60,014 nucleotides of DNA from an uncultured Opitutia bacterium (lineage in GTDB: Bacteria > Verrucomicrobiota > Verrucomicrobiia > Opitutales > Opitutaceae): positions 1 to 60,014 of the forward strand of contig CAIRCN010000051.1 in the NCBI GenBank assembly GCA_903877135.1. The letters run 5' to 3'. The notes below the pieces were generated by a model. That model did no database searches and had not been told where the DNA came from. It saw only the letters and a list, made by a program, of their open reading frames with translations. Position 1 is the stretch's first letter. Each line of letters starts with the position of its first letter. This document shows positions 46,089-59,475 of the stretch, one piece after another. A program made the position numbers and the translations under genes.

Positions 46089-46096
46089 TAACTCAA
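46089..46096 (+). repeat. Target-site duplication, right copy
   Basis: TAACTCAA, identical to 43347-43354. It contains the stop codon (TGA on the minus strand, 46093-46095) of the Ig-repeat protein gene, so the target was that gene's last codon. Confidence 0.9.
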
Positions 46097-49000
46097 TTTA
46101 CATCATAAACTTCGAGGAGGGCAATGCCAGCGGAACCGTTGACCCCAACGACCTGCGCCGTATAGACGCCGGGCTCCAAGGTGACCAGTAACTCCGAGTC
46201 TTTGCTGGCCGGATTTATCAAGGTGAAGGCACCGACACTGGCGCTTACACTGGCAAGTTGTGCATCGCCACCCCAGTTGTCGTTGGAAAGGATCAGTGTG
46301 CTGACGCCGTTATGGGCAGAATAAACAACCAGGCTCGGATCGCTGAGGTTTGCGTTGCCAACGGCGGCCGCGAAGGCCGCATCGGCACCGATGCCGCGGA
46401 TCAGCACGGTCTTAGCGGTCTGCCCCGAGATGACGAAGCCGGCGGTGAGCGTGTCGGTGGGGCCGACGTAGGCGCGTGCCGAGACGTTGATCAAACGGGG
46501 TGTGGTGGCGCTGAACCCCGAGGGGTTGGTGTCGTAAATCTCGGCAAGCACTGAGCCAGTGGTGCTGTTGTTGCCGCTCACAATCACCGAATAGACATTG
46601 CGCGGGAAATTGCCCAAAAGGGCAGCGTCCAAGCTGGTGTTGCTGGCCAGAGGGAACGCGCCCGTCGCAAGGGCGGCGGCCTTCAGCGCCGCGGTGCCGC
46701 CCCAATTGTCGTTGCTCGCAATCGCCGTGGCGCTGCCGGCTGGAATCACCGATATGGCAGGATCGAGCATAGCATCGGTTACATTGAAAGGTGCCGGAAT
46801 GAGCGTGGGGCCGACGCCGCGAATCAGCAACGGGACGGATCCGCTCGTGCCGGCACCGCCGGCGACGAAGCCCATGATCAGAACCTTGGGGTCGATGCCC
46901 GATGTCCCCCGGATGGACCAATTGATGACTCGGCCGGGATTTGAAGTCGTGATCACAATGAGTGAGGCGCTGTTGCTGGTGATGGAGCCGCCGCTGGAGT
47001 TACCCACCATGACGGTGTAGTTAGCCGCGTCGGCTGCCTGGACATTGGACAGAATCAGGCGCGAGAACGTGGCACCCGCGATGGGCTTGCTGTCTTTTTG
47101 CCACTGGTAGGTCAGTCCGCTGCCGGTCGCCTCGACGGCAAAGATCATTGTCGCCCCGATCGTGCCCGTATGAGACTGGGGTTGGGTCACGATGGACGGC
47201 GGGACCGAGCTGACCGTGAGCACAGCCCCGCTGCTAGTGAGGCTGCCAAGCGAGTTGGTGGCGATGGCGGTGTAGGTGCCAGCATCGGTGAGCTGGACGT
47301 TGTTCAGGATGAAGGTGGTGCTCGTGGCGCCGGCGATGGCAGCACCGTTTTTCTTCCACTGATAGGTGGGTGCCGGCGAGCCACTGGCCGCCACGGTGAA
47401 GGTGACGGTGTCGCCTGCAAACGCGGACTGACCCAGCGGCTGTGCCGTGAACGCTGGGGCCACCGGCGTGGAATTGACGGTAAGGACTGCAGCGCTGCTG
47501 GTGGCGCTGCCAGCGGAGTTGGTGGCGATGACCGCGTATGTGGCGGCATCAGTGAGTTGGGCGTTGCTCACGGTGAGCGAGGCGTTGGTCGCAGCGACGA
47601 TGGCGGCACCGTCTTTGGTCCACTGGTAGGTGGGAGTGGGCGTGCCGTTGGCCGCCGCAGTGAAGGTGACCGAGGCTCCGACGAGGATGGTCTGGCTCGC
47701 AGGCTGGGTAGTGAAGGTCGGGGGAACGGTGACGGTGAGGACGGCGCCGGTGCTGGTGGCGCTGCCCGCGGAGTTAGTGGCGGTGATGGCGTAGGTGGCT
47801 CCGTCGGTGAGTTGGATGTTGCTCAGGGTGAGCGTGGCGCTGGTGGCGCCGGCGATGGCGGCAGTGCCCTTCATCCATTGGTAGGTTGGCGTGGGCGAGC
47901 CGCTCGCGGTGACTGTGAAGGTGACGGTGCCACCAACCACGGCAGTCTGGCTTTGCGGCTGAGTCGTGAAACTGGGAATAGCGGTAGCCGCGTTGACGGT
48001 GAGTGTGGCGGCGGTGGAGGTTGCGGAACCGGCGCTGTTGTTGGCTACGGCAGTGTAAGTGCCAGCATCACTGGCTGCGGCACTGGCGATGGAGTAGGTG
48101 GCGCTGGTTGCGCCGGCGATGTTCACGCCGGCTTTCAGCCATTGATAGGTCGGTGTGGGGGTTCCGCTCGCGGTCACGGTGAATGAGGCCGAGCCGCCCG
48201 CCGTCACTGTCACGCTGGCTGGCTGAGTCGTGATGGCCGGAGCGACCGTCGCCGCGTTGACGGTGAGTATGGCGGCAGCGGAGGTTGCGGAGCCGGCGCT
48301 GTTAGTCGCGACGGCAGTGTAAGTGCCGGCATCGCTGGCTGCAGCACTGGCGATGGAGTAGGTGGCGCTGGTTGCGCCGGCGATGTTCACGCCGGCTTTC
48401 AACCATTGATAGGTCGGTGTGGGGGTTCCGCTCGCGGTCACGGCGAATGAGGCCGCGCCGCCCGCCGTCACTGTCACGCTGGCTGGCTGAGTCGTGATGG
48501 CCGGAGCGACCGTCGCCGCGTTGACGGTGAGTGTGGCGGCGGTGGAGGTTGCGGAACCGGCGCTGTTGTTGGCTACGGCAGTGTAAGTGCCAGCATCACT
48601 GGCTGCGGCACTAGCGATGGAGTAGGTGGCGCTGGTTGCGCCGGCGATGTTCACGCCGGCTTTCAGCCATTGATAGGTCGGTGTGGGGGTTCCGCTCGCA
48701 GTCACGGTGAATGAGGCCGAGCCGCCCGCCGTCACTGTCACGCTGGCTGGCTGAGTCGTGATGGCCGGAGCGACCGTCGCCGCGTTGACGGTGAGTATGG
48801 CGGCGGTGGAAGTTGCGGAGCCGGCGCTGTTGGTCGCGATGGCGGTGTAAGTGCCGGCATCGCTGGCTGCGGCACTGGCGATAGAGTAGGTGGCGCTGGT
48901 TGCGCCGGCGATATTCACGCTGCCAAGCTGCCATTGATAGGTCGGTGTGGGGCTCCCGCTTGTCGCCACAGTGAATGAGGCCGAGTTGCCCGCCGTCACT

Positions 49001-49602
49001 GTCAGACTGGTTGGCTGGGTCGTGAAACTGGGAGCCGTAGCTGACCCGCCGGTGATAGAGAAAGTGACCGTAATTCTAGCACTATTGCCGCCCGACCCGC
49101 CTGTTCCATCCCAAGCAGTGATCGTGACCGGAAAGCTGCCTGCGGCACTGGGCGTGCCTGTGATTGTCATCTTGTAAGGCGCAGCTACATTGACCCAAGT
49201 ATTCACCCCTGCGCCGGTGAGGCTCAGCCCGGTTGGAAGCGTGCCCGTGACACTAAACGATTTTGGATTGCCAGGTGCGCCACTCACCGAAACACCCACG
49301 CTCATGGCTGTGCCAGAAGTGCCAGCGATTGTGAATTTGGTGTTGGCGGCTCCACTGGTCGGGCTGGCGGCCACTGGAGTCGCAGTGACGTTAAAAACCG
49401 TGGCACCGGCCAGCGAATTGTAAGCCCCCAGCGCCACGACCCCGAAAGCGGAGCGTAGAATCGCCGGCGCGTTTTCGGCGAGTCCGCCCTCGAACTGAAC
49501 CACCACCACCCGCAGCATTGGTGTGCGCTGAAGCAACAGCACCAAGAGGCCTGTTGGCATTTGCAACCAACGGAAACGGTGAGCAAGGGCGGTAATGTTC
49601 AT
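46093..49602 (-). CDS. Large exported Ig-like repeat protein
   Basis: A 1,169-residue surface or secreted protein. The N-terminus (1-70) is hydrophobic with LQRTPMLRVVV and ends SLAGATVF, an export-like segment I associate with Opitutaceae proteins. Residues about 75-190 form a putative-Ig/cadherin-like domain (AGSFPVTITAWDG). Then come eight Ig-like domains of about 88 residues, each starting like TTQPASVTVTAGGSASF and containing YQW and AGTYTA. The C-terminus has two related modules with SNDNWGG and ending in LAEIYD or LLEVYD. No cell-wall anchor is seen. The role may be adhesion or envelope structure. The IS1595-type element abuts its stop codon. Confidence 0.9.
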   Translation of the reverse strand: MNITALAHRFRWLQMPTGLLVLLLQRTPMLRVVVVQFEGGLAENAPAILRSAFGVVALGAYNSLAGATVFNVTATPVAASPTSGAANTKFTIAGTSGTAMSVGVSVSGAPGNPKSFSVTGTLPTGLSLTGAGVNTWVNVAAPYKMTITGTPSAAGSFPVTITAWDGTGGSGGNSARITVTFSITGGSATAPSFTTQPTSLTVTAGNSASFTVATSGSPTPTYQWQLGSVNIAGATSATYSIASAAASDAGTYTAIATNSAGSATSTAAILTVNAATVAPAITTQPASVTVTAGGSASFTVTASGTPTPTYQWLKAGVNIAGATSATYSIASAAASDAGTYTAVANNSAGSATSTAATLTVNAATVAPAITTQPASVTVTAGGAASFAVTASGTPTPTYQWLKAGVNIAGATSATYSIASAAASDAGTYTAVATNSAGSATSAAAILTVNAATVAPAITTQPASVTVTAGGSASFTVTASGTPTPTYQWLKAGVNIAGATSATYSIASAAASDAGTYTAVANNSAGSATSTAATLTVNAATAIPSFTTQPQSQTAVVGGTVTFTVTASGSPTPTYQWMKGTAAIAGATSATLTLSNIQLTDGATYAITATNSAGSATSTGAVLTVTVPPTFTTQPASQTILVGASVTFTAAANGTPTPTYQWTKDGAAIVAATNASLTVSNAQLTDAATYAVIATNSAGSATSSAAVLTVNSTPVAPAFTAQPLGQSAFAGDTVTFTVAASGSPAPTYQWKKNGAAIAGATSTTFILNNVQLTDAGTYTAIATNSLGSLTSSGAVLTVSSVPPSIVTQPQSHTGTIGATMIFAVEATGSGLTYQWQKDSKPIAGATFSRLILSNVQAADAANYTVMVGNSSGGSITSNSASLIVITTSNPGRVINWSIRGTSGIDPKVLIMGFVAGGAGTSGSVPLLIRGVGPTLIPAPFNVTDAMLDPAISVIPAGSATAIASNDNWGGTAALKAAALATGAFPLASNTSLDAALLGNFPRNVYSVIVSGNNSTTGSVLAEIYDTNPSGFSATTPRLINVSARAYVGPTDTLTAGFVISGQTAKTVLIRGIGADAAFAAAVGNANLSDPSLVVYSAHNGVSTLILSNDNWGGDAQLASVSASVGAFTLINPASKDSELLVTLEPGVYTAQVVGVNGSAGIALLEVYDVN
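47987..48778 (-). repeat. 264-bp near-identical tandem repeats encoding Ig domains
   Basis: The marker GCCGCGTTGACGGT recurs at 47987, 48251, 48515 and 48779, exactly 264 bases (88 codons) apart. The units between them differ at only a few positions. They encode the second to fourth Ig domains of the exported protein, while outer domains are more diverged. Such identity suggests recent unit duplication and copy-number variability. Confidence 0.9.
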
Positions 49603-49655: not shown

Positions 49656-49877
49656 TCAGTTGCAGCCGCAACCGCTGCCACCGACACCGCGGCCACCGGA
49701 GGAGGCTTCGCGGGAAAAATAGATGTGCTCCATCATGGTGTTTTGCACGGAGTCGCGGTCCGGACGCATGGAGTAGTCGGCGAGGGTTGCGCGCTCCCAA
49801 GGTTGCACGGTGGTGCAACCGGAGAGGAACGCGGCAAGGCAGACGAGCAACAGGAGAAGGCCGTGATTTTTTTTCAT
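49656..49877 (-). CDS. DUF4266 lipoprotein
   Basis: A 73-residue lipoprotein. The signal peptide ends in the lipobox LSG-C21. The mature protein (VQPWERATLADYSMRP, HIYFSREASSGG, and a Gly-rich Cys-containing tail GVGGSGCGCN) matches DUF4266. It is the last gene of a three-gene operon: its ATG overlaps the TlpA-like gene's stop by 4 bases. In known genomes this family travels with a thioredoxin-like protein, a DUF3570 outer-membrane protein and often an ApbE flavin transferase, which is consistent with this region. The molecular function is unknown. Confidence 0.9.
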   Translation of the reverse strand: MKKNHGLLLLLVCLAAFLSGCTTVQPWERATLADYSMRPDRDSVQNTMMEHIYFSREASSGGRGVGGSGCGCN

Positions 49878-50374
49878 GATTTTTCCTCCAGCAAACGCGT
49901 GATTTCCTCGCGCAGACTCTTTATGGTCGCAGCGTCGTGAAAGCCGCTGTGCACGCTGCGCAAGACGCCTTTGCGGTCGATCAAGTATGACGTTGGCATC
50001 GCCGGCACCCGCACTTCGGAGACGAGCTTCTGGGTGCCGTCCCGCACGGTTGGAAAGGCTGGGGCGTAGCGCTTGAGGAATTCGGCATAGGGGCCGCTGG
50101 TCTTATCGATGCTGACAGCGAGGAGGACGAAGCCGCGGCCGGCCAATTCGCGCTGAAGTTCGGAATAAGCCGGGAAAGAGGCTTTGCACGGGGCGCACCA
50201 AGTGGCCCAGAAATCGACAAGGACTACTTGGCCTTCGCGGACCGGCAGCGTGCCCTCAAGGGAATAGTTGGCGAGGTTGGGGAAGGGTTGACCGACCTTG
50301 ACCTCAGCCAGCGCCGAGCCGGCGAGGGCCAGGGCGCAGGTCAGCCCGGTGATGATTTTGGTTGATCGTGTCAT
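49874..50374 (-). CDS. TlpA-like periplasmic thioredoxin
   Basis: 166 residues with a signal peptide (cut after SALA, about residue 23) and a redoxin fold. The active site is WATWC60-A-P-C63, followed by SFPAYSELQRELAGRGFVLLAVSID, the cis-Pro region VPAMPTSYLIDRKG, and a short helical end. It likely reduces or shuffles disulfides of envelope partners, perhaps the Cys-tailed DUF4266 lipoprotein encoded next. It is the middle gene of the operon; its start lies 39 bases after the DUF3570 gene stop. Confidence 0.92.
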   Translation of the reverse strand: MTRSTKIITGLTCALALAGSALAEVKVGQPFPNLANYSLEGTLPVREGQVVLVDFWATWCAPCKASFPAYSELQRELAGRGFVLLAVSIDKTSGPYAEFLKRYAPAFPTVRDGTQKLVSEVRVPAMPTSYLIDRKGVLRSVHSGFHDAATIKSLREEITRLLEEKS

Positions 50375-50413
50375 GATGGGGAAAATTAAGGTTGGTGGTA
50401 CGCCGGCGGCGGC

Positions 50414-51604
50414 TCAGTGGGTGAACTTCACGCCGAAGGTGAAGGTGTTGGCCTTGCAGAAGGCGCCGGAGGGCGTGAGGCTGTCGAGCCCCCGCGAGGT
50501 GTAGCGGTCATACGCCACGTCCACCGAAACCCACGGCTTGATCTTCCAGATCAGCTTCAGGCCCAAATCGATGGTCTCCATGTGCGACAGCCGGTAGTCG
50601 GAGGAATAGAAAGGGGCCTTGCCGGTGCCGGTCTGAAAGAGCACCGGGTCGTAGCTGGTGACAATCTTTGCCGCGTCGAGACTGGGGTAATAGAAATCAG
50701 CCGCCGACTGTTCGTAGAGCCGGACCGAGGGCTGCACGATGAACTTGTCGCCGACCTTCTGAATCCAGAGCAACGAGAGGGTGTGGCTGCTGATGCCGAA
50801 GGTGTCGTGGTAGTAGCGGTAGGAGGCATCGAGCGCGCCGTTGAGTTTCTCGAAGTTGTGGTTGGCCGCCAGAAATACGCTCACCTTGTTTTTCTCCGTC
50901 GGCCGGTTCTCCGGCACCGTGTAATAAAATCCCGGATCCAAGTTGAGCATGGTTGTGGAGACGATCTTGTAGGGATCGCTTAGGAAGCCATGCGACTGGC
51001 CGTAGGAGACATTGGCCGAGACCGAAGTGTTCGGATCGAGTAACTGTCCAAGGCCGATCATGAAATCGTTGCCGGTCTTCGGGCGCTTGATCGTCCAGCC
51101 GATCTTCTCTTCATTGATCATGTCATCGGTCCGACCGTAGCCCAGCATCAGATTGGTGTTCTTCTCATTGAAATCGGTGACGGTGTTCAGCGACCAGCCG
51201 TTCGAGACGTAGTCGCTCTCCCGACTGTTGGCGAAACCGGCGGTGACGCTGATCCGGTCAAACTGGTGGGAAAGCTCCGAGTCCCAGGCTTTGCGGCGAT
51301 CGTGCATGGGGGCAATCGGGACCGGGCCGCCCGGCGTGAGGGGGGCTTCTCCAGTTGGGGTCGCGCCCGCGATGGAGTCGATCAGCCCCATCAGTTTGAG
51401 GTGCGTGCTGGTGGTAAGATCGGACTCCAATTGCGCGTATTGGGAGTCGACCCGGATGCGCTGGTTATCCTCCTGCCAGGATTGTGCCTTGAAGGTCAAG
51501 GTGTCTTCGCCGCGACTGCTCTTCAGCAAGCCGAGCGAGAGGAGCAAACCAAGAAAAATATCGCGGACCGAATTTGTGAGGCGAGTGGTAGGATGAGGAT
51601 GCAT
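50414..51604 (-). CDS. DUF3570 outer-membrane beta-barrel protein
   Basis: 396 residues with a signal peptide (LGLLLSLGLLKSSRG, cut about residue 32) and alternating beta strands throughout. It has the family's HDRRKAWDSELSHQFDRISVTAGFANSRESDYVS and WSLNTVTDFNEKNT, a long run of barrel strands, SRYRYYHDT-like ASYRYYHDTFGISSHTLSL, and an aromatic-ended C-terminus (FTFGVKFTH). The length fits DUF3570. It is the first gene of the DUF3570-TlpA-DUF4266 operon. The shared bipartite motif at 51816-51852 lies about 210 bases upstream. Confidence 0.9.
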   Translation of the reverse strand: MHPHPTTRLTNSVRDIFLGLLLSLGLLKSSRGEDTLTFKAQSWQEDNQRIRVDSQYAQLESDLTTSTHLKLMGLIDSIAGATPTGEAPLTPGGPVPIAPMHDRRKAWDSELSHQFDRISVTAGFANSRESDYVSNGWSLNTVTDFNEKNTNLMLGYGRTDDMINEEKIGWTIKRPKTGNDFMIGLGQLLDPNTSVSANVSYGQSHGFLSDPYKIVSTTMLNLDPGFYYTVPENRPTEKNKVSVFLAANHNFEKLNGALDASYRYYHDTFGISSHTLSLLWIQKVGDKFIVQPSVRLYEQSAADFYYPSLDAAKIVTSYDPVLFQTGTGKAPFYSSDYRLSHMETIDLGLKLIWKIKPWVSVDVAYDRYTSRGLDSLTPSGAFCKANTFTFGVKFTH

Positions 51605-51951: not shown

Positions 51952-52977
51952 TCAGCGCCAGCGGAGTTCGGCCACATGTTGTGTGCCTGACCGCTGTGCG
52001 GTGAAAGCCAACTGGGGTTGCAGCGCGACGATTGCGCGCACGATCCGCAGCCCAAGGCCGGTCCCTTTGTCCGCAGAGACCGGCCGTGCTGCGATCGTGT
52101 TTTCGATCCGGCAGACAGTCTCGGCCCCCTCGCGGGCGACGGTTACTGTCAACGGACCGGTACCGTGGCGCAGGGCGTTGGTGAGCAGGTTGTGCAAAAT
52201 CTGCCGGAGGGTGCGCACATCCGTCGGCACGATGACTTCTTCAACCGCGACGACATGGAGCTCGCGATTCCCGGCGCGCGCCAGCAACTCGTAGATCTCG
52301 ATCATCTCCGTCACCAGCGCGCGCAGCGGCACAGGTTTGATATCCAAAGTCAGGCGACCTTGCTCGGCCGTCGCGAGCAGCAGGCACTGGTCCACATATT
52401 CGGAGAGGCGGCTTAGCTCATCCTGCAGGGACTCCGCGAGCGCAGGTTCAATGCGGCCGGCGGCCTCCTCGACTTGCAGGCGGAGGAGCGTGAGGGGCAT
52501 GCGCAATTCATGGGCAACCCGTGCGGAAAATTCCGTCAACTGGCGGAAGCTGGCGTCGAGCCGGGCGAGCAGCGCGTTGACGTTGTTTTCGATCGCACGG
52601 AACTCCTCGTCGGCCTGTTTCAGATCCACCCGCTGATCGAGACTGTGCGCCCCGATCGCCTGCAACTGCCGGTTCATTTCCACGACGGGTTGAAACGACC
52701 GTTTGGCGAGATAGTAGCCCGCGCCCAACGCCAGCGCGATGACCGGCGCCGCGTAGAGCAACGCCAGGTGCCAGAGCTCCTCCGTGATGTCATCGACCTC
52801 CGACTTGTCGTAGCTGCCGTGGAGCCGCCAGCGCTCGTGCCCCGGCTGCAAACGCTCCATGCCCTCGTCCCGCAGCTCGTAAAGCAGGTGGGTGTAGGTG
52901 ACGCCGACAAAGGTGAACATCACCGCCAGTAGGCTGACGGTGAACCAGACGGCAACGCGCCAGCGGAGCGATTTCAT
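51952..52977 (-). CDS. Membrane sensor histidine kinase (HAMP-HisKA-HATPase)
   Basis: 341 residues. TM1 is at about 7-30 (VWFTVSLLAVMFTFVGVTYT), a short periplasmic loop follows to about 70, and TM2 is at about 73-95 (LLYAAPVIALALGAGYYLA). HAMP begins SFQPVVEMNRQL, the HisKA box is ARVAHELRMPLTLLRL, and the HATPase has the N box LLTNALRHGTG, a weakened G1 and GTGLGLRIV. The small periplasmic part suggests sensing in or near the membrane. The start overlaps the response-regulator stop by 4 bases. It is the last gene of the operon with the P-type-ATPase-like and DUF2231 genes. Confidence 0.94.
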   Translation of the reverse strand: MKSLRWRVAVWFTVSLLAVMFTFVGVTYTHLLYELRDEGMERLQPGHERWRLHGSYDKSEVDDITEELWHLALLYAAPVIALALGAGYYLAKRSFQPVVEMNRQLQAIGAHSLDQRVDLKQADEEFRAIENNVNALLARLDASFRQLTEFSARVAHELRMPLTLLRLQVEEAAGRIEPALAESLQDELSRLSEYVDQCLLLATAEQGRLTLDIKPVPLRALVTEMIEIYELLARAGNRELHVVAVEEVIVPTDVRTLRQILHNLLTNALRHGTGPLTVTVAREGAETVCRIENTIAARPVSADKGTGLGLRIVRAIVALQPQLAFTAQRSGTQHVAELRWR

Positions 52978-53651
52978 GGCGCGGCCTCCCGTAGCGCATA
53001 GCCGACCCCGCGGACCGTCTGAATCAAGGGGGGGAGCCCGGCGCGGTCGATCTTAGTCCGGAGGTAGTTGACGTAAACGTTCACGACATTGGTGCCCGAG
53101 TCGAAGTGCTGGTCCCAGACGTGCTCGATGATCGCGGTCTTGCTCACGGGTTTGGGCGACGAGGTCATCAGGATTTCCAACAGCGCAAACTCCCGGTTGG
53201 TGAGCGGAATCTCCGCTCCGGCCCGTCGGGCGGTGCGTGCGAGCAGGTCAAGTTCGAGGTCGGCGACGCGCAACTGGTCGACCGCATCGGGCCGCTGCCG
53301 GCGCAGCAGGGCGCGCATGCGGGCGAGCAGTTCGCTCATCGAAAACGGCTTGGCGAGATAGTCGTCCGCGCCGGCGTCGAGCCCGGCGACGCGATCCTCG
53401 AGTTCATGGCGCGCAGTGAGGAAAATCACCGGTGTGCGCACGCCCTTGCGGCGCAGTTGCCGGACCACCGTCATGCCGTCCTGCCCCGGCATCATCACGT
53501 CGCACACCATTGCATCGTAGGTGTGGTTTCCCCCCAACCAGAGCGCCTCTGCTCCATCGGCGGCGACGTCGACGGCGTAGCCCGCTTCCTGCAACCCGCG
53601 GCGGATGTGGGCAGCGACCTTCTGCTCATCTTCGGCAACCAGTATGCGCAT
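52974..53651 (-). CDS. OmpR/PhoB-family response regulator
   Basis: 225 residues. The receiver (1-118) has VAEDEQK, the phospho-Asp in AMVCDVMMPGQDG, FLTARHE and the Lys in DYLAKPFSMSELLAR. The winged-helix DNA-binding domain (about 130-225) has REFALLEILMTSSPKPVSK, HVWDQHFDSGTNVVNVYV and IQTVRGVGYALR. The start at 53651 (MRILVAEDEQ) is preferred over a frame start 8 codons upstream. It is cotranscribed with its kinase (4-base overlap) and follows the P-type-ATPase-like gene by 46 bases. It is a plausible binder of the bipartite motif found before both nearby operons. Confidence 0.95.
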   Translation of the reverse strand: MRILVAEDEQKVAAHIRRGLQEAGYAVDVAADGAEALWLGGNHTYDAMVCDVMMPGQDGMTVVRQLRRKGVRTPVIFLTARHELEDRVAGLDAGADDYLAKPFSMSELLARMRALLRRQRPDAVDQLRVADLELDLLARTARRAGAEIPLTNREFALLEILMTSSPKPVSKTAIIEHVWDQHFDSGTNVVNVYVNYLRTKIDRAGLPPLIQTVRGVGYALREAAP

Positions 53652-53697
53652 GGCCAAGGTGTAGCATTCCCGCACCGGAGTGCGAGACTGGATGCGT

Positions 53698-55407
53698 TCA
53701 GGTGGCGGCGGGCGCTGCGGAGTGACGCAGGAGGCGCAAACCGTTCAGACAGACCAGCGCCGTGCTGCCCACGAGCGCTAGCATGCCGAGGGGCAGAGTC
53801 ACGTGACCCGTCAGCGCGGCAACGACCAGCCCGACCGTCACGCCCAGGGCAAATGTGAAATTTTGCGCGACCACGCGGTGGGCCCGCCGGCTGATTTCGA
53901 TGGCGAAAGGTATGCTCCTCAACTCGCCGTTCAGCATGGCGACGCCGGCCGTCTCCCTAGCACCATCGGTGCCGTCAGCGCCAAGCGCAAGGCCGAGATC
54001 GGCGGCAGCAAGCGCCGGTGCATCAAGGCCGCCGTTTCCCACCATGGCCACCGGGCCGAGGGCCAGGAGGGCGCGGATCACACGAACCTTGTCCTCGGGC
54101 ATCAACTGCGCGTGCACTTCGTCAACGCCGGTTTCGCGCGCGATTACCTCGGCGACCCGATGATGATCCCCAGTGAGGAGCACGGTGCGTTTCACGCCCA
54201 ACTGGCGGAGACGCGTGATCACGGCTGCCGCTCCTGGGCGCAAACCGTCGGCCAAGGCGATTACGCCGAGCATGCGGGCCTGATCCCCGCCCGCGGTGAT
54301 CTCGCCCACAAGCACACAGGTCTTGCCGGCATCCTGCAGCGCCGCCAGCCAGCCCTCGGTTTCGGCCAGACCGCAGCAGTGGAGCAGTTTAAAATAGGCG
54401 ATGCTTCCCACGGCAATGCGCCGATGGTTCACGGTCGCTGCGACACTCTTCCCGGAAACCGATTGAAACTCGGTACACTCCAACTGGCCGAGCCGGCGCT
54501 CCCGGGCCGCTTTGGCAATGGCGCGGGCCAGCGGATGCCCTGAGGGTGCCTCGACAGCCGCCGCCACGCGCAACAGGTCGAGTGACTCGCCGGTCGGCTG
54601 CCACAGAAAGGCGCTGTGCCCGCCGGAGGCGATGATGTCTGTGACCTGCGGCTCACCACGGGTGAGCGTGCCGGTCTGGTTGAAGGCCAGCACCTGGACC
54701 GTGGTCAAGCGCTCAAGTTGAGCGCCGCCCTTGATGAGAATCCCGCGCCGGGCTGCGCCGCCGAGCGCCGCGAGATTCGCGACGGTCGTGCCGAGGATGA
54801 CTGCGCAGGGCGACGCGACCACCATCACGGTTATGGCGCGGTAGAAAACTTCGTGTAACGCTTGGTGAAGGCCGAGCCATGGCACGAAAATCAACGCCGC
54901 CGTGAGTATGAGGACAGCAAAGATGTAAGGTTGCTCTGACTTTTCCAACAGGCGCTGGATGTCGGTCTTTTCGCCGTGCGCCGGCTGCGACTTTCCGAGC
55001 GGGCCGATGGCCCTGTGGGCGCGGTTGATCGCCCAGTCCTGCAGAACGTTGGAGAGCGAGAGCAAAAACAGGCCCCATGCGCCCTCGAAAGGCACGCCGA
55101 CAAAAGCGGCGCCGATCGCCGCCAGCACGACGAGCAAGTCCACATTGACCGTGCGTTGGCGCAGCGACCGCCAGCTCGCACGCACGCCGAAGTAACCGCC
55201 GGTCAGGTAGGCCAGAAAGCAACTGGTGGCACTGATTGCCGGCAGCGGGGGCAGGGCATGCGCCGCGCCCCAGCCCAGCACCAGGAAAACCAGCGTCGCG
55301 CTGGCGCATACGACTTCGGTCTGTTTGTGCAGCAGCCAATCATGCCAGTCCGCGGGAATGGCCGTGCGGTCGGCCGCAAATGGGGTTTCTGGCTCACCGA
55401 TGGTCAT
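53698..55407 (-). CDS. P1B-type ATPase-like protein with catalytic residues lost
   Basis: 569 residues. Overall architecture follows heavy-metal P-type ATPases: TMs at about 34-75 and 90-120, the ion-site SPC motif (199-201, as in P1B-4 pumps), a nucleotide-binding SGHPLARAIA (H291-P292), LLTGDHH (412-414) and two final TMs. However, the phosphorylation motif DKTGT is N243-Q-T-G-T, GDGxND is G-N458-G-G-L-D462, and the actuator domain with its TGE loop (normally about 100 residues after TM4) is reduced to a short linker at 131-160. The frame is intact. By family knowledge it cannot form the phospho-Asp intermediate. It may be a sensor, scaffold or passive channel in the two-component operon. 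Confidence 0.88.
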   Translation of the reverse strand: MTIGEPETPFAADRTAIPADWHDWLLHKQTEVVCASATLVFLVLGWGAAHALPPLPAISATSCFLAYLTGGYFGVRASWRSLRQRTVNVDLLVVLAAIGAAFVGVPFEGAWGLFLLSLSNVLQDWAINRAHRAIGPLGKSQPAHGEKTDIQRLLEKSEQPYIFAVLILTAALIFVPWLGLHQALHEVFYRAITVMVVASPCAVILGTTVANLAALGGAARRGILIKGGAQLERLTTVQVLAFNQTGTLTRGEPQVTDIIASGGHSAFLWQPTGESLDLLRVAAAVEAPSGHPLARAIAKAARERRLGQLECTEFQSVSGKSVAATVNHRRIAVGSIAYFKLLHCCGLAETEGWLAALQDAGKTCVLVGEITAGGDQARMLGVIALADGLRPGAAAVITRLRQLGVKRTVLLTGDHHRVAEVIARETGVDEVHAQLMPEDKVRVIRALLALGPVAMVGNGGLDAPALAAADLGLALGADGTDGARETAGVAMLNGELRSIPFAIEISRRAHRVVAQNFTFALGVTVGLVVAALTGHVTLPLGMLALVGSTALVCLNGLRLLRHSAAPAAT

Positions 55408-55498: not shown

Positions 55499-56035
55499 CT
55501 AATCGTTGTCGTCTTTGCGTTGCTTCTTGGGTTCAGGAGAAGCCGCTCCGCTGGATGAGTCAGTGTTATTGGCCGCTGAAATTATCGCCCCTGCACCTTG
55601 GCCGTAAACGAGCTGACCGCCGTTGTGCCCGGTCTCAATCACACACCAGGAGGCCGCGAGCGCCCCGGCCGCCGCCGCGATGCCGAGAGCGCGCGCCGCG
55701 GCCGGCCGGCGCGAGGCGACGACGGTGCCGGAGGCGAGCAGGGCCGCAAAGACGGCGGCGATTTGGGTGCGCTCGGCCCAGCCCTCATGGCGTTCGAGTA
55801 GCTGTGCGATGGCTGGTGTCGCCTTGAATCGACTGTTGCCGCTCTCGCCGCTCTGTGCCGCCACGGCTGCGCCGAAGGCGCCCAGCACAAGAAGCGCGGC
55901 GGCGATGCCGGGCAGCCCCCAGCGCGGTCGGCAGGCCGCAATCATGGCGACGACAGCACCGAGCAAGAGCAGCACGATAGGAAAATGCACCACCGCGGGA
56001 TGCAGGGGTTTGGGCAGGGAAAAGAGCGCGAGCAT
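55499..56035 (-). CDS. DUF2231-like membrane protein
   Basis: 178 residues. It starts MLALFSLPKPLHPAVVHFPIVLLLLG, the hallmark HPxxVHFP of DUF2231. About four TM helices follow (12-32, 42-60, 88-106 and 113-132), with ETGHNGGQLVYGQGAG after the last and a charged C-terminal tail (KKQRKDDND). Conserved His residues in membrane positions are reminiscent of heme- or metal-binding membrane proteins, but the function is unknown. It is the first gene of the operon with the P-type-ATPase-like protein (91 bases downstream) and the two-component pair. A copy of the bipartite motif lies about 175 bases upstream. Confidence 0.82.
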   Translation of the reverse strand: MLALFSLPKPLHPAVVHFPIVLLLLGAVVAMIAACRPRWGLPGIAAALLVLGAFGAAVAAQSGESGNSRFKATPAIAQLLERHEGWAERTQIAAVFAALLASGTVVASRRPAAARALGIAAAAGALAASWCVIETGHNGGQLVYGQGAGAIISAANNTDSSSGAASPEPKKQRKDDND

Positions 56036-57022: not shown

Positions 57023-58516
57023 ATGAGTGCCCTTTCGCCCGAGCCGTCTGTTAGTCTCGCCGAGCTTTTCGCTCGCGCCAATGCGCTGCGGGAGCAGGGC
57101 CGTTGGGATGAGGCGGTGGCGGCGTTCCGGGCGGTGCTGGCCCGCGCCCCGGCGCAGGCGGAGGCGCTTCTGAACCTCGGATTGGTGCTCGAAAAGCTGG
57201 GACAGTTCGAGGAGGCGGAGGCGACGTACCGGAGTGCGCTGGCTGCGCAGCCGGAACGGCCGGAGGCGTATTTCAACCTAAGCAACGTGCTGCTCCGGCG
57301 CGGCCGCCCGGCCGAGTCGGTGGCGGCACTCGAGCGTGCCCTTGCTCTGCGGCCCGATTTTCCTGAGGCGCTCGTCAATCTCGGCAATTTCCTGCGCGTG
57401 AGCCAGCAGCTCGATGCATCCGAGGCCGCCTATGCGCGGGCACTGGCGTTGCGACCCGACTATGCCGAGGCGTGGGTCAACCTCGGCAACGTGTTTCGGG
57501 CGCGCAACGACATGCCGCGTGCCTTTGCCGCCTACGAGCGCGCACTGGCGTTGCATCCCACCCTGGCCCAGGCGCACCTGAACCAGGGGCTGGCGTATCT
57601 CGTCACGGGCGAGCTGCTGCGCGGCTGGCAGAAGGCGGAGTATCGCGGCGACGTGCCGGGCACCACGCCCACGCGCCGGCTGCCTGCGCCGCGTTGGCGG
57701 GGCGACGAACCGTTCGCGGGCCGGACGATTTTGCTGCACGCCGAACAGGGGCTGGGCGACACGCTGCAATTCGTCCGCTACGTGCCGATGGTGGCGGCGC
57801 TCGGGGCGACGGTGCTGCTGGAGGTGCAGCCGGCGCTGCGCACGCTGCTAGCGGGATATCCGGGTGCCGCGGCGGTGTTGGCGCACGGGGAGGCGCTGCC
57901 GGCGTTCGACTACGAGTGCCCGTTGCTCAGTCTTCCGCTGGCGTTCGGCACCGAGCTGGCGACCGCGCCGGCGGCGACGCCCTACGTTCACCCACCGGCG
58001 GCGCATGCCTCCCGCTGGCGGGATTGGGCGGCGCGCATTCTGCCGCCGCGCGTCGGCGTAGTCTGGGCCGGCAATCCGGGTCATCCCAACGACGCGAACC
58101 GTTCGATTCCGCTGGAACTGTTTCGGACGGTGCTGGCCGATTTCGCGGCGGCGCGGTTTGTGTGCCTGCAAAAGGAGATTGCCGAGCGCGACGCTGCGGC
58201 GATGCGCGCGTGCCAAAACCTTCTCCTGCGAGCGCCGGAGTTGGTGGACTTCGCCGACACCGCCGGGTTGGTGGCACAACTGGATTTGGTGATTGCGGTG
58301 GACTCGGCGGTCGCGCATCTCGCCGGGGCGATGGGCCGGCCAGTGTGGTTGCTGGTGCCGTTTTCGCCTGACTGGCGCTGGCTGCTGGGGCGCACGGACT
58401 CACCGTGGTATTCGGCGACGCGGTTGTTCCGCCAGCCGCGTTTGGGCGACTGGCAGACGGTGCTGACGAATGTGCGCAGCGAGCTACAGCAACGTTACGG
58501 TCCGGTGTTGGGCTGA
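57023..58516 (+). CDS. TPR protein with C-terminal glycosyltransferase-9-like domain
   Basis: 497 residues. Residues about 10-245 contain six or so tetratricopeptide repeats (for example EALLNLGLVLEKLGQFEEAE, PEAYFNLSNVLLRRGRPAES and AEAWVNLGNVFRARND). The C-terminal part (about 260-490) is heptosyltransferase-like: RTILLHAEQGLGDTLQFVRY, VGVVWAGNPGHPNDANRSIPL, FADTAGLVAQLDLVIAVDSAVAHLAGAMG and VWLLVPFSPDWRWLLGR. Such fusions occur in glycoprotein or flagellin glycosylation and surface glycan synthesis. The acceptor here is unknown. The start at 57023 follows GGTGGTGA; the frame extends 45 codons upstream without homology. Confidence 0.9.
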   Translation: MSALSPEPSVSLAELFARANALREQGRWDEAVAAFRAVLARAPAQAEALLNLGLVLEKLGQFEEAEATYRSALAAQPERPEAYFNLSNVLLRRGRPAESVAALERALALRPDFPEALVNLGNFLRVSQQLDASEAAYARALALRPDYAEAWVNLGNVFRARNDMPRAFAAYERALALHPTLAQAHLNQGLAYLVTGELLRGWQKAEYRGDVPGTTPTRRLPAPRWRGDEPFAGRTILLHAEQGLGDTLQFVRYVPMVAALGATVLLEVQPALRTLLAGYPGAAAVLAHGEALPAFDYECPLLSLPLAFGTELATAPAATPYVHPPAAHASRWRDWAARILPPRVGVVWAGNPGHPNDANRSIPLELFRTVLADFAAARFVCLQKEIAERDAAAMRACQNLLLRAPELVDFADTAGLVAQLDLVIAVDSAVAHLAGAMGRPVWLLVPFSPDWRWLLGRTDSPWYSATRLFRQPRLGDWQTVLTNVRSELQQRYGPVLG

Positions 58517-58590
58517 GTCGGCATAAAGTTAATCCTGTCAGGTTAAGAAATTTCGTCGTACTTTCGAGTGTCGCAGCCATCTTACCTTCG

Positions 58591-59475
58591 ATGTCTGGAC
58601 CGTCACGCTTTGCCTTCACCGCGATGGGCTCGGAGTGCGTGCTCTATCTCCATGACACGGACGCTATGACGGCGCAAGCAGCCGAGGAAGAGGTTCTCCG
58701 GATTGAACACCGCTATTCCCGCTACCTTGAGGAAAGCGTGCTCACGCAGATTAATCGTGCCGCAGCCGAGGGCCAGCCAATTGAGGTCGACGCCGAAACC
58801 GCCGCGCTTATCGACTATGCCTTTGCGTGCTATCGCAAGAGCAACGGATTGTTCGATATTACCACGGGTATCATGCGCCGCGCGTGGGATTTCTCTTCTG
58901 GGCGCGCACCCGCTCCAACAGCGATCGAGCGGTGGCTGCCATTTGTCGGACTCGACAAGATACGTTGGGAGCCGCCGCGACTTTCATTTCCACTTGCGGG
59001 AGTCGAAATTGATTTGGGCGGGATTGGCAAAGAATATGCCGCGGACCGAGCGGCGGCGGTCTGCGTCGAAGCGGGTGTGGTCCACGGGCTGGTGGATCTC
59101 GGGGGGGATATTCGTGCCATTGGTCCGCGACCCGATGGCACGGCCTGGCCCGTCCATATCCGTGATCCACGGGCGGCTGGACAGGCAATTGCGGTCATTC
59201 CGCTCGATAGTGGTGGGCTGGCGACAAGCGGCGATTATGAACGCTGTGTTTTCATCGACGGCCAGCGCCACAGTCACATCTTGGATCCACACACCGGTCG
59301 GTCGGTGCGAGGTCTTGCCGGCGTCAGCGTCGTGGGTGAGACGTGCCTTCTCGCCGGGAGTATTTCGACGATCGCCATGCTCAAGGGCCCAGCCGGTGCG
59401 GCGTGGCTAGCCGCACTCGGAGTGGGCTGCGTGTGGGTTGATTCCGACGGCCGTAAGGGCGGTTCACTGCTCTGA
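58591..59475 (+). CDS. apbE: FAD:protein FMN transferase (ApbE family)
   Basis: 294 residues. ApbE enzymes attach FMN to a Thr or Ser of periplasmic or membrane redox proteins. The family blocks are present: FTAMGSECVLYL at the start, RIEHRYSRYLEESVLTQIN, the FDITTGIMRRAWDF segment, EIDLGGIGKEYAADRAA, HGLVDLGGDIRAIG, GLATSGDYER and HSHILDPHTGR, with the metal-site Asp in the GSIST-containing C-terminal part. No lipobox is visible from the chosen start. An ApbE commonly accompanies DUF4266/TlpA/DUF3570 genes, which here lie 7 kb away. Its flavinylated target is not seen in the window. Confidence 0.93.
   Translation: MSGPSRFAFTAMGSECVLYLHDTDAMTAQAAEEEVLRIEHRYSRYLEESVLTQINRAAAEGQPIEVDAETAALIDYAFACYRKSNGLFDITTGIMRRAWDFSSGRAPAPTAIERWLPFVGLDKIRWEPPRLSFPLAGVEIDLGGIGKEYAADRAAAVCVEAGVVHGLVDLGGDIRAIGPRPDGTAWPVHIRDPRAAGQAIAVIPLDSGGLATSGDYERCVFIDGQRHSHILDPHTGRSVRGLAGVSVVGETCLLAGSISTIAMLKGPAGAAWLAALGVGCVWVDSDGRKGGSLL

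Follow-up and report, generated by a model that had tools for sequence, protein, structure and literature searches.

The locus described here raises a plain question: whether a P-type ATPase-like gene that has lost the residues of the pump cycle and still holds a full open reading frame is kept by selection as a pseudo-enzyme, or is what remains of a pump that its lineage could do without. The former was proposed in an earlier note on the same DNA, where the gene was also taken for the metal- or nucleotide-sensing partner of a sensor kinase encoded nearby. The window, i.e., the whole stretch of DNA analysed, is one entire contig (60014 bp) out of the 87 that make up a draft genome, and the gene is an open reading frame of 569 codons on its minus strand, with zero stops in the translation; the plus strand of 53698-55407 contains stops in the frame tried.

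Descent of the Gene and Its Lesions

On the 569-aa protein, Pfam recognises a HAD hydrolase part and only the C-terminal portion of E1-E2_ATPase, the PF00122 match being confined to profile positions 104-181 of 181. The solved relative closest by sequence is sCoaT (PDB 7qbz, "Cadmium translocating P-type ATPase", E 5.1e-85), and the NCBIfam profile of heavy-metal ATPases, TIGR01525, gives 369 bits against a cut-off of 346, so that automatic annotation would name the gene a working pump; if the protein is not used by the cell, this dead gene is a warning for annotation. By the homology of its membrane, P and N segments (TIGR01525, and 7qbz as the top match by both sequence and structure) the protein is a P-type ATPase by descent and, judged from its sequence, the gene is derived from a P1B-4 efflux ATPase. 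With sCoaT it shares SPC in M4 and the order of membrane, P and N segments, but it differs in lacking the actuator domain with its TGE, in the exchange of Asp for Asn at the phosphorylation site, in a broken hinge and in the loss of His and Glu from HEGxT.

In an alignment with ten intact relatives (553 gap-free codon columns), the substitutions are D243N and K244Q in DKTGT, D458N and N461L in GDGxND, E290G and G321S in the nucleotide domain, and H545L and E546V in HEGxT, whose H and E are present in all ten intact sequences of this core alignment. The actuator cut amounts to 99 aa whichever of the five measured relatives is taken for comparison. Also missing is the metal-binding region that the nearest orthologues carry at the N terminus, where Pfam HMA was found in both orthologues scanned. 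Three features mark a functional P-type ATPase, namely DKTGT, the actuator with TGE and the GDGxND hinge, and none of them is present; of the two P1B-4 features, SPC in M4 (S199 P200 C201) is kept and HEGxT in M6 has become LVGST. Residues T245-G246-T247, K440, G459 and D462 are also kept. A PTGES string at residues 271-275 sits past NQTGT, in the N domain, and so is not the TGE loop. Table 1 collects the coordinates.

Table 1. Position of the ATPase-like gene, its motifs and its neighbours in the window.
Feature	Coordinates	Strand	Remarks
Degenerate P1B-4-type heavy-metal ATPase, 569 aa (class judged by sequence)	53698..55407	-	Without actuator domain and without N-terminal HMA region
NQTGT, residues 243-247	54667..54681	-	Replaces DKTGT
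GNGGLD, residues 457-462	54022..54039	-	Replaces the GDGxND hinge
LVGST, residues 545-549	53761..53775	-	Replaces HEGST; metal-site and counter-ion residues lost (roles from PMC8880997)
Junction of the in-frame 297-bp (99 aa) actuator-domain deletion, P142/A143	54981..54982	-	Alignment to G478, G579, G489, G506 and G007
SPC metal motif, residues 199-201	54805..54813	-	Kept
HP of the nucleotide-binding domain, residues 291-292	54532..54537	-	Kept; E290 before HP changed to G
TGD, residues 412-414	54166..54174	-	Kept
OmpR-type response regulator	52974..53675	-	Best NCBIfam is heavy-metal CzcR/SilR/CopR, below model cut-off; 75-87% identity to the regulators of eight relatives
Sensor kinase, short loop near N terminus (by eye)	51952..52977	-	Best NCBIfam is CzcS/SilS/CopS, below cut-off
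DUF2231 membrane protein	55499..56035	-	Upstream; common to relatives' operons
DUF3570, TlpA-like and DUF4266 neighbour genes	49656..51604	-	

The replaced motifs, the missing actuator, the kept SPC, HP and TGD and the open frame are all as the earlier note had described them. Its wording that all catalytic hallmarks were replaced is right for DKTGT, the hinge and the actuator and too broad for TGT, HP, TGD, K440, G459, D462 and SPC, which remain; the loss of His and Glu from HEGxT and the absent N-terminal HMA region had escaped it.

HP, GxG, TGD and the lysine of PEDK have known roles in P-type ATPases. In PMC8880997, SPC together with HEGxT is the proposed high-affinity metal site, H657 is the internal counter-ion and TGE serves dephosphorylation; PMC10654040 identifies the conserved aspartate as the residue that is phosphorylated and reports that bacterial P1B-4 pumps export Fe2+. 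A protein with these lesions is unable to run the P-type pump cycle.

As to how the domains were lost, no clear repeat was definable at the deletion junction at such divergence that would speak for slippage between short repeats. A remnant HMA domain between DUF2231 and the start codon was also considered and rejected, as by eye no frame there resembles one.

Relatives and Spread of the Altered Form

Homologues were searched for in four overlapping sets: 57 relatives and, by rank, 252 family, 384 class and 387 phylum genomes. Among the matches listed, the best of the family come from G478 (66% identity), G579 (64%), G506, G500 and G285 (62-63%), G489 and G491 (59%) and G007 (57%), with frames of 691-863 aa; the nearest intact orthologue (L117:3625-6039, in G478) is 63% identical overall and 66% over residues 141-569. 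In the homologous loci extracted from the matches listed, DKTGT is found in 57/57, the TGE[SAPT] string in 55/57 and the strict hinge pattern in 49/57. The intact operon orthologues of G478, G579, G506, G500 and G007 share with the window's gene the slot upstream of the same regulator-kinase pair and 55-66% identity, but they possess the N-terminal HMA-like region, and in G478, G579, G506 and G007 DKTGT, TGE, GDGIND and HEGST are kept.

The earlier note had asked whether N243, N458 and the missing actuator are conserved in homologues, and no second dead version was found among them, the 57 extracted loci all carrying the ordinary phosphorylation motif. A DNA pattern for NQTGT, searched in the 252 family genomes, fell inside a P-type ATPase in only one of them, the window's own; the other three matches lie in unrelated proteins, so that the idea of NQTGT pumps being more widespread in the family was dismissed, and a reversed pattern, used as control, also gave 3 matches. 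The spread over more than one species that a conserved pseudo-enzyme should have was thus not seen, in a pattern search that covered the NQTGT replacement only, and this counts against a dedicated pseudo-enzyme. G001, the only other genome of the same genus searched, lacks both the ATPase and the kinase at the thresholds applied, and a scan of genome contigs gave three distant relatives only, 30-31% identical.

Substitution Rates and Changes at Invariant Positions

The window's ATPase sits on an amino-acid branch of 0.504 substitutions per site, 5-6-fold longer than those of G478 (0.086) and G579 (0.101), while the branch of the regulator and kinase (0.159 in the window, 0.155 in G478, 0.140 in G579) is ordinary; the acceleration is therefore confined to the ATPase. 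With a codon model written for this analysis, dN/dS of the ATPase was 0.120 on the window branch and 0.044 elsewhere (LRT 16.2), and neutrality (dN/dS = 1), tested on the window branch only, was rejected (LRT 79.8), whereas the regulator and kinase together gave an ordinary 0.067 on the window branch against 0.053 elsewhere (LRT 0.9). A departure from the background was present on other terminal branches too, namely G506 (0.001, LRT 18.7), G278 (0.005, LRT 14.5), G285 (0.104, LRT 12.6), G309 (0.003, LRT 9.2), G007 (0.020, LRT 6.4) and G489 (0.119, LRT 4.4), with ten others tested in all. Since six other branches depart, the departure of the window branch is not special, and since synonymous change is near saturation, the dN/dS value itself is rough; branch length and the count of changed invariant positions carry more weight. 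The trees disagree on the window's neighbour, which is G478/G489/G491 for the ATPase and G579 for the regulator-kinase pair.

The same comparisons bear on the thought that the gene is a product of chimeric or erroneous draft assembly, which the window invites by being a whole contig of such a draft. We hold this to be very improbable, as the regulator and kinase of the same contig group normally with those of relatives, GC at the dead ATPase (0.623) is like that of five ATPase loci that the genome has on other contigs (0.611-0.682), and the substitutions are scattered along a frame that is itself clean.

In the earlier note, the two Asp-to-Asn exchanges were read as a coordinated loss of catalytic residues. 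Of the 287 columns invariant in the ten relatives, 70 are changed in the window, and leaving out each of the ten relatives in turn gives 0-27 such changes for each, so that the window's protein lies outside the range of functional relatives. Motif residues are changed in 8/27 cases and other invariant residues in 62/260 (Fisher P=0.49), which does not bear out a coordinated loss, and the regional differences, from 5/39 in the N domain, the lowest, to 14/42 in M5-M6 and 19/58 in M3-M4, the highest, are not significant (P=0.19). With no enrichment in motifs and no regional difference, the pattern is one of general relaxation and not of a selective removal of catalysis.

Neutral Decay or Constraint

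Plain neutral decay of a pseudogene that has met no stop or frameshift yet has to be weighed. Such decay would agree with the loss of invariant positions regardless of function, with the intact orthologues in the same slot, with the second pump described below, and with the occurrence of the same regulator pair without an adjacent ATPase at 11/17 loci. The missing stops are weak evidence against neutrality: for 131 neutral missense changes (23% of 569, the estimated excess) only 1.4-3.9 stops are expected, and the probability of none is 0.02-0.24 across eight mutation settings, falling to <=0.02 when neutrality is assumed for all 202 differences from the ancestor proxy.

However, the substitutions have been filtered. 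At invariant hydrophobic positions that changed, the new residue is still hydrophobic in 38/45 cases against about 27 under the null (P<0.001 in all eight mutation settings), in a test that counts glycine and cysteine as hydrophobic and whose null allows single-base steps only; intact controls kept hydrophobicity at 25/33. The filter holds in the membrane and soluble parts separately (P 0.004-0.009), although the BLOSUM62 measure for the soluble part under unbiased mutation was not significant (P=0.064). Indels are common in bacterial pseudogenes, and here, relative to most of seven relatives, there are no gaps besides the 99-residue cut and one of 4 residues near the N terminus, which G478 shares. 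Stops, frameshifts and unfiltered substitutions, by which a pseudogene would be recognised, were not found. The hydrophobic filter, dN/dS below 1 and the few gaps together disfavour purely neutral drift over the whole accelerated period, and we consider a plain pseudogene rather unlikely. There could also have been a relaxed but active phase followed by a recent death, and in that case the conservative substitutions could date from the active phase.

These results divide two of the earlier suggestions. Selection on the open frame, which had been argued for from the lack of stops and frameshifts, fits the hydrophobic filter and dN/dS below 1; selection as a pseudo-enzyme is not supported by a dead form known from one genome. 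The note had also held that close homologues with DKTGT and an actuator would mark this copy as merely decaying: they exist, at 55-66% identity and with all motifs retained, but mere decay is itself disfavoured.

The Operon and the Regulator-Kinase Pair

For the adjacent kinase and regulator, the best NCBIfam families are those of CzcRS/CopRS/SilRS (TIGR01386, TIGR01387), from which the window's pair differs in scoring below the curated cut-offs and in a kinase whose loop is short and whose ATP domain is compact. The kinase is found at E<=1e-50 in nineteen other genomes of the family, and the loci of 17 of these, G007 included and G218 and G492 left out, were examined, with neighbours recognised through homology to the window's own proteins. 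Going upstream from the regulator, the first gene recognised is an intact ATPase at 6/17 (G007, G579, G478, G506, G500, G556), DUF2231 at another 6/17 (G430, G127, G021, G232, G034, G499), an Ig-domain gene at 4/17 (G491, G494, G489, G477) and TlpA at 1/17 (G456); the regulator-kinase pair is thus without an adjacent ATPase at 11/17 family loci. In G489 and G491 an intact ATPase lies several kilobases away, beside another regulator. G478 has the gene order of the window (DUF2231, ATPase, regulator, kinase) with an intact pump, and outside the family the order ATPase-regulator-kinase is present in G278 too.

Since an intact ATPase occupies the same slot in relatives, the gene owes its place beside the kinase to descent from an ordinary efflux operon. 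The partnership of ATPase and kinase, which had been suggested from their adjacency and the tiny sensor loop, may exist, but nothing specific supports it. To speak of a coordinated, selected sensor is to claim more than the data bear.

The idea of a dedicated pseudo-enzyme, binding nucleotide or metal and acting as a sensing or regulatory partner of the CzcS-like kinase or of the second pump, draws on the open frame, the hydrophobic filter, the kept HP, TGD and SPC, P and N domains that are confidently modelled (see below), and an operon that includes a regulator and a kinase; there is also a general precedent for pump-dependent signalling, as CadA is reported to be needed for timely CzcCBA expression (PMC7242495). 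Nevertheless, we judge it unlikely: the kinase and its short loop exist without an adjacent ATPase at most of the loci examined, no second genome has the dead form, the nucleotide pocket is partly altered (E290G, G321S), and invariant loss shows no significant regional difference, though it is lowest in the N domain.

Second Pump, Structure Model and Preferred Explanation

A second P1B-4 pump is encoded in the genome (G000:C73:41102-42952), with DKTGT, TGE, GDGVNDAP, MSPCA and HEGST all present, and we infer that redundancy through this pump allowed the loss. The AlphaFold2 model of the window's protein, built on a four-sequence alignment, has a mean pLDDT of 65.8; values are mostly 80-93 at residues ~230-480, with a dip at 261-280, 29-63 by ten-residue blocks in the first 200 residues and 58-84 in the last helices. 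In Foldseek, 7qbz leads the matches, together with other P1B pumps. The model supports no more than a P/N unit able to fold and is no evidence for an intact membrane domain.

On balance we lean, with some reserve, towards an inactive, redundant P1B-4 pump of a single lineage, eroded, probably still translated and weakly constrained. The ancestral operon would have consisted of DUF2231, the P1B-4 ATPase, the CzcR-like regulator and the CzcS-like kinase and was presumably metal-responsive. In the lineage of the window the pump would then have lost its function, with the metal-site His and Glu, the phosphorylation site, the hinge, the actuator and the N-terminal metal-binding region gone, a loss that the second, motif-complete pump probably made tolerable. 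Constraint appears to have relaxed over the entire protein and not at the catalytic sites in particular. The remaining membrane helices and P/N domains keep the frame and the hydrophobic pattern, for which reason the protein is probably still translated and folded at least partly, as a weakly constrained relic.

Several points weigh against an eroded but still constrained pump. A weakly constrained gene should have a purpose and none is demonstrated; the dead form is known from one genome only; and the conservative changes may predate the death of a relaxed, active pump. Furthermore, dN/dS is rough and other branches also depart from the background, the ATPase and regulator-kinase trees give the window different neighbours, the BLOSUM62 result for the soluble part falls short of significance under unbiased mutation, and confidence in the structure model is limited to the P and N domains.

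To hypothesize further, a P1B-4 pump might have been converted in one lineage to a non-transporting membrane receptor, with P and N domains but no actuator and SPC but no HEGxT, which reports nucleotide or metal state to the kinase or modulates the second pump; we regard this as doubtful. Like known pseudoenzymes (pseudokinases, pseudophosphatases), the window's protein has lost catalytic residues and partly kept its fold, but it differs from them in having no conserved lineage and no demonstrated function. Among the papers listed by our searches there was no case of a P-type ATPase pseudoenzyme, an absence that carries little weight. Should the cell make and use the protein, it would be a P-type ATPase turned pseudo-enzyme, a kind absent from those papers, and would offer a natural test of what P and N domains do outside the pump cycle.

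Other Observations on the Neighbourhood

The ATP-binding domain of the kinase family is compact: the ten rows shown have no evident F-box or DxGxG G1 box and a G2-like box only, which in the window's kinase is GTGLGL.

In G478 and G232, DUF2231 is preceded by a rubrerythrin gene (PF02915; L117:2383-2994, L128:6310-6915), which hints that the operon may serve in iron or redox stress; inspection of the ORFs listed upstream of DUF2231 in the window brought no such gene to light. In G579 the intact ATPase is preceded by a cytochrome b561-like gene (PF01292; L116:4980-5747), and genes whose start resembles it stand at the same place in G506, G500, G007 and G556.

At 46093-49602 (-) the window encodes a 1169-aa protein with many Ig-like domains, and the Ig genes recognised nearest to the regulator in G489, G491, G494 and G477 are related to it. 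The genes at 49656-51604 (-) and 58405-59475 (+), i.e., DUF4266, TlpA-like, DUF3570 and ApbE, form a flavinylation/thioredoxin cluster; a cluster with such genes is described in PMC8238504. The window's DUF3570 protein has AGAT (and SGAF) and not the published [S/T]GA[S/T] motif, and AGAT is found also in three relatives. In G127, G456 and G499 the same regulator-kinase pair has DUF3570 homologues nearby, and the DUF4266 protein of the window ends at its C terminus in GCGCN, a CxC.
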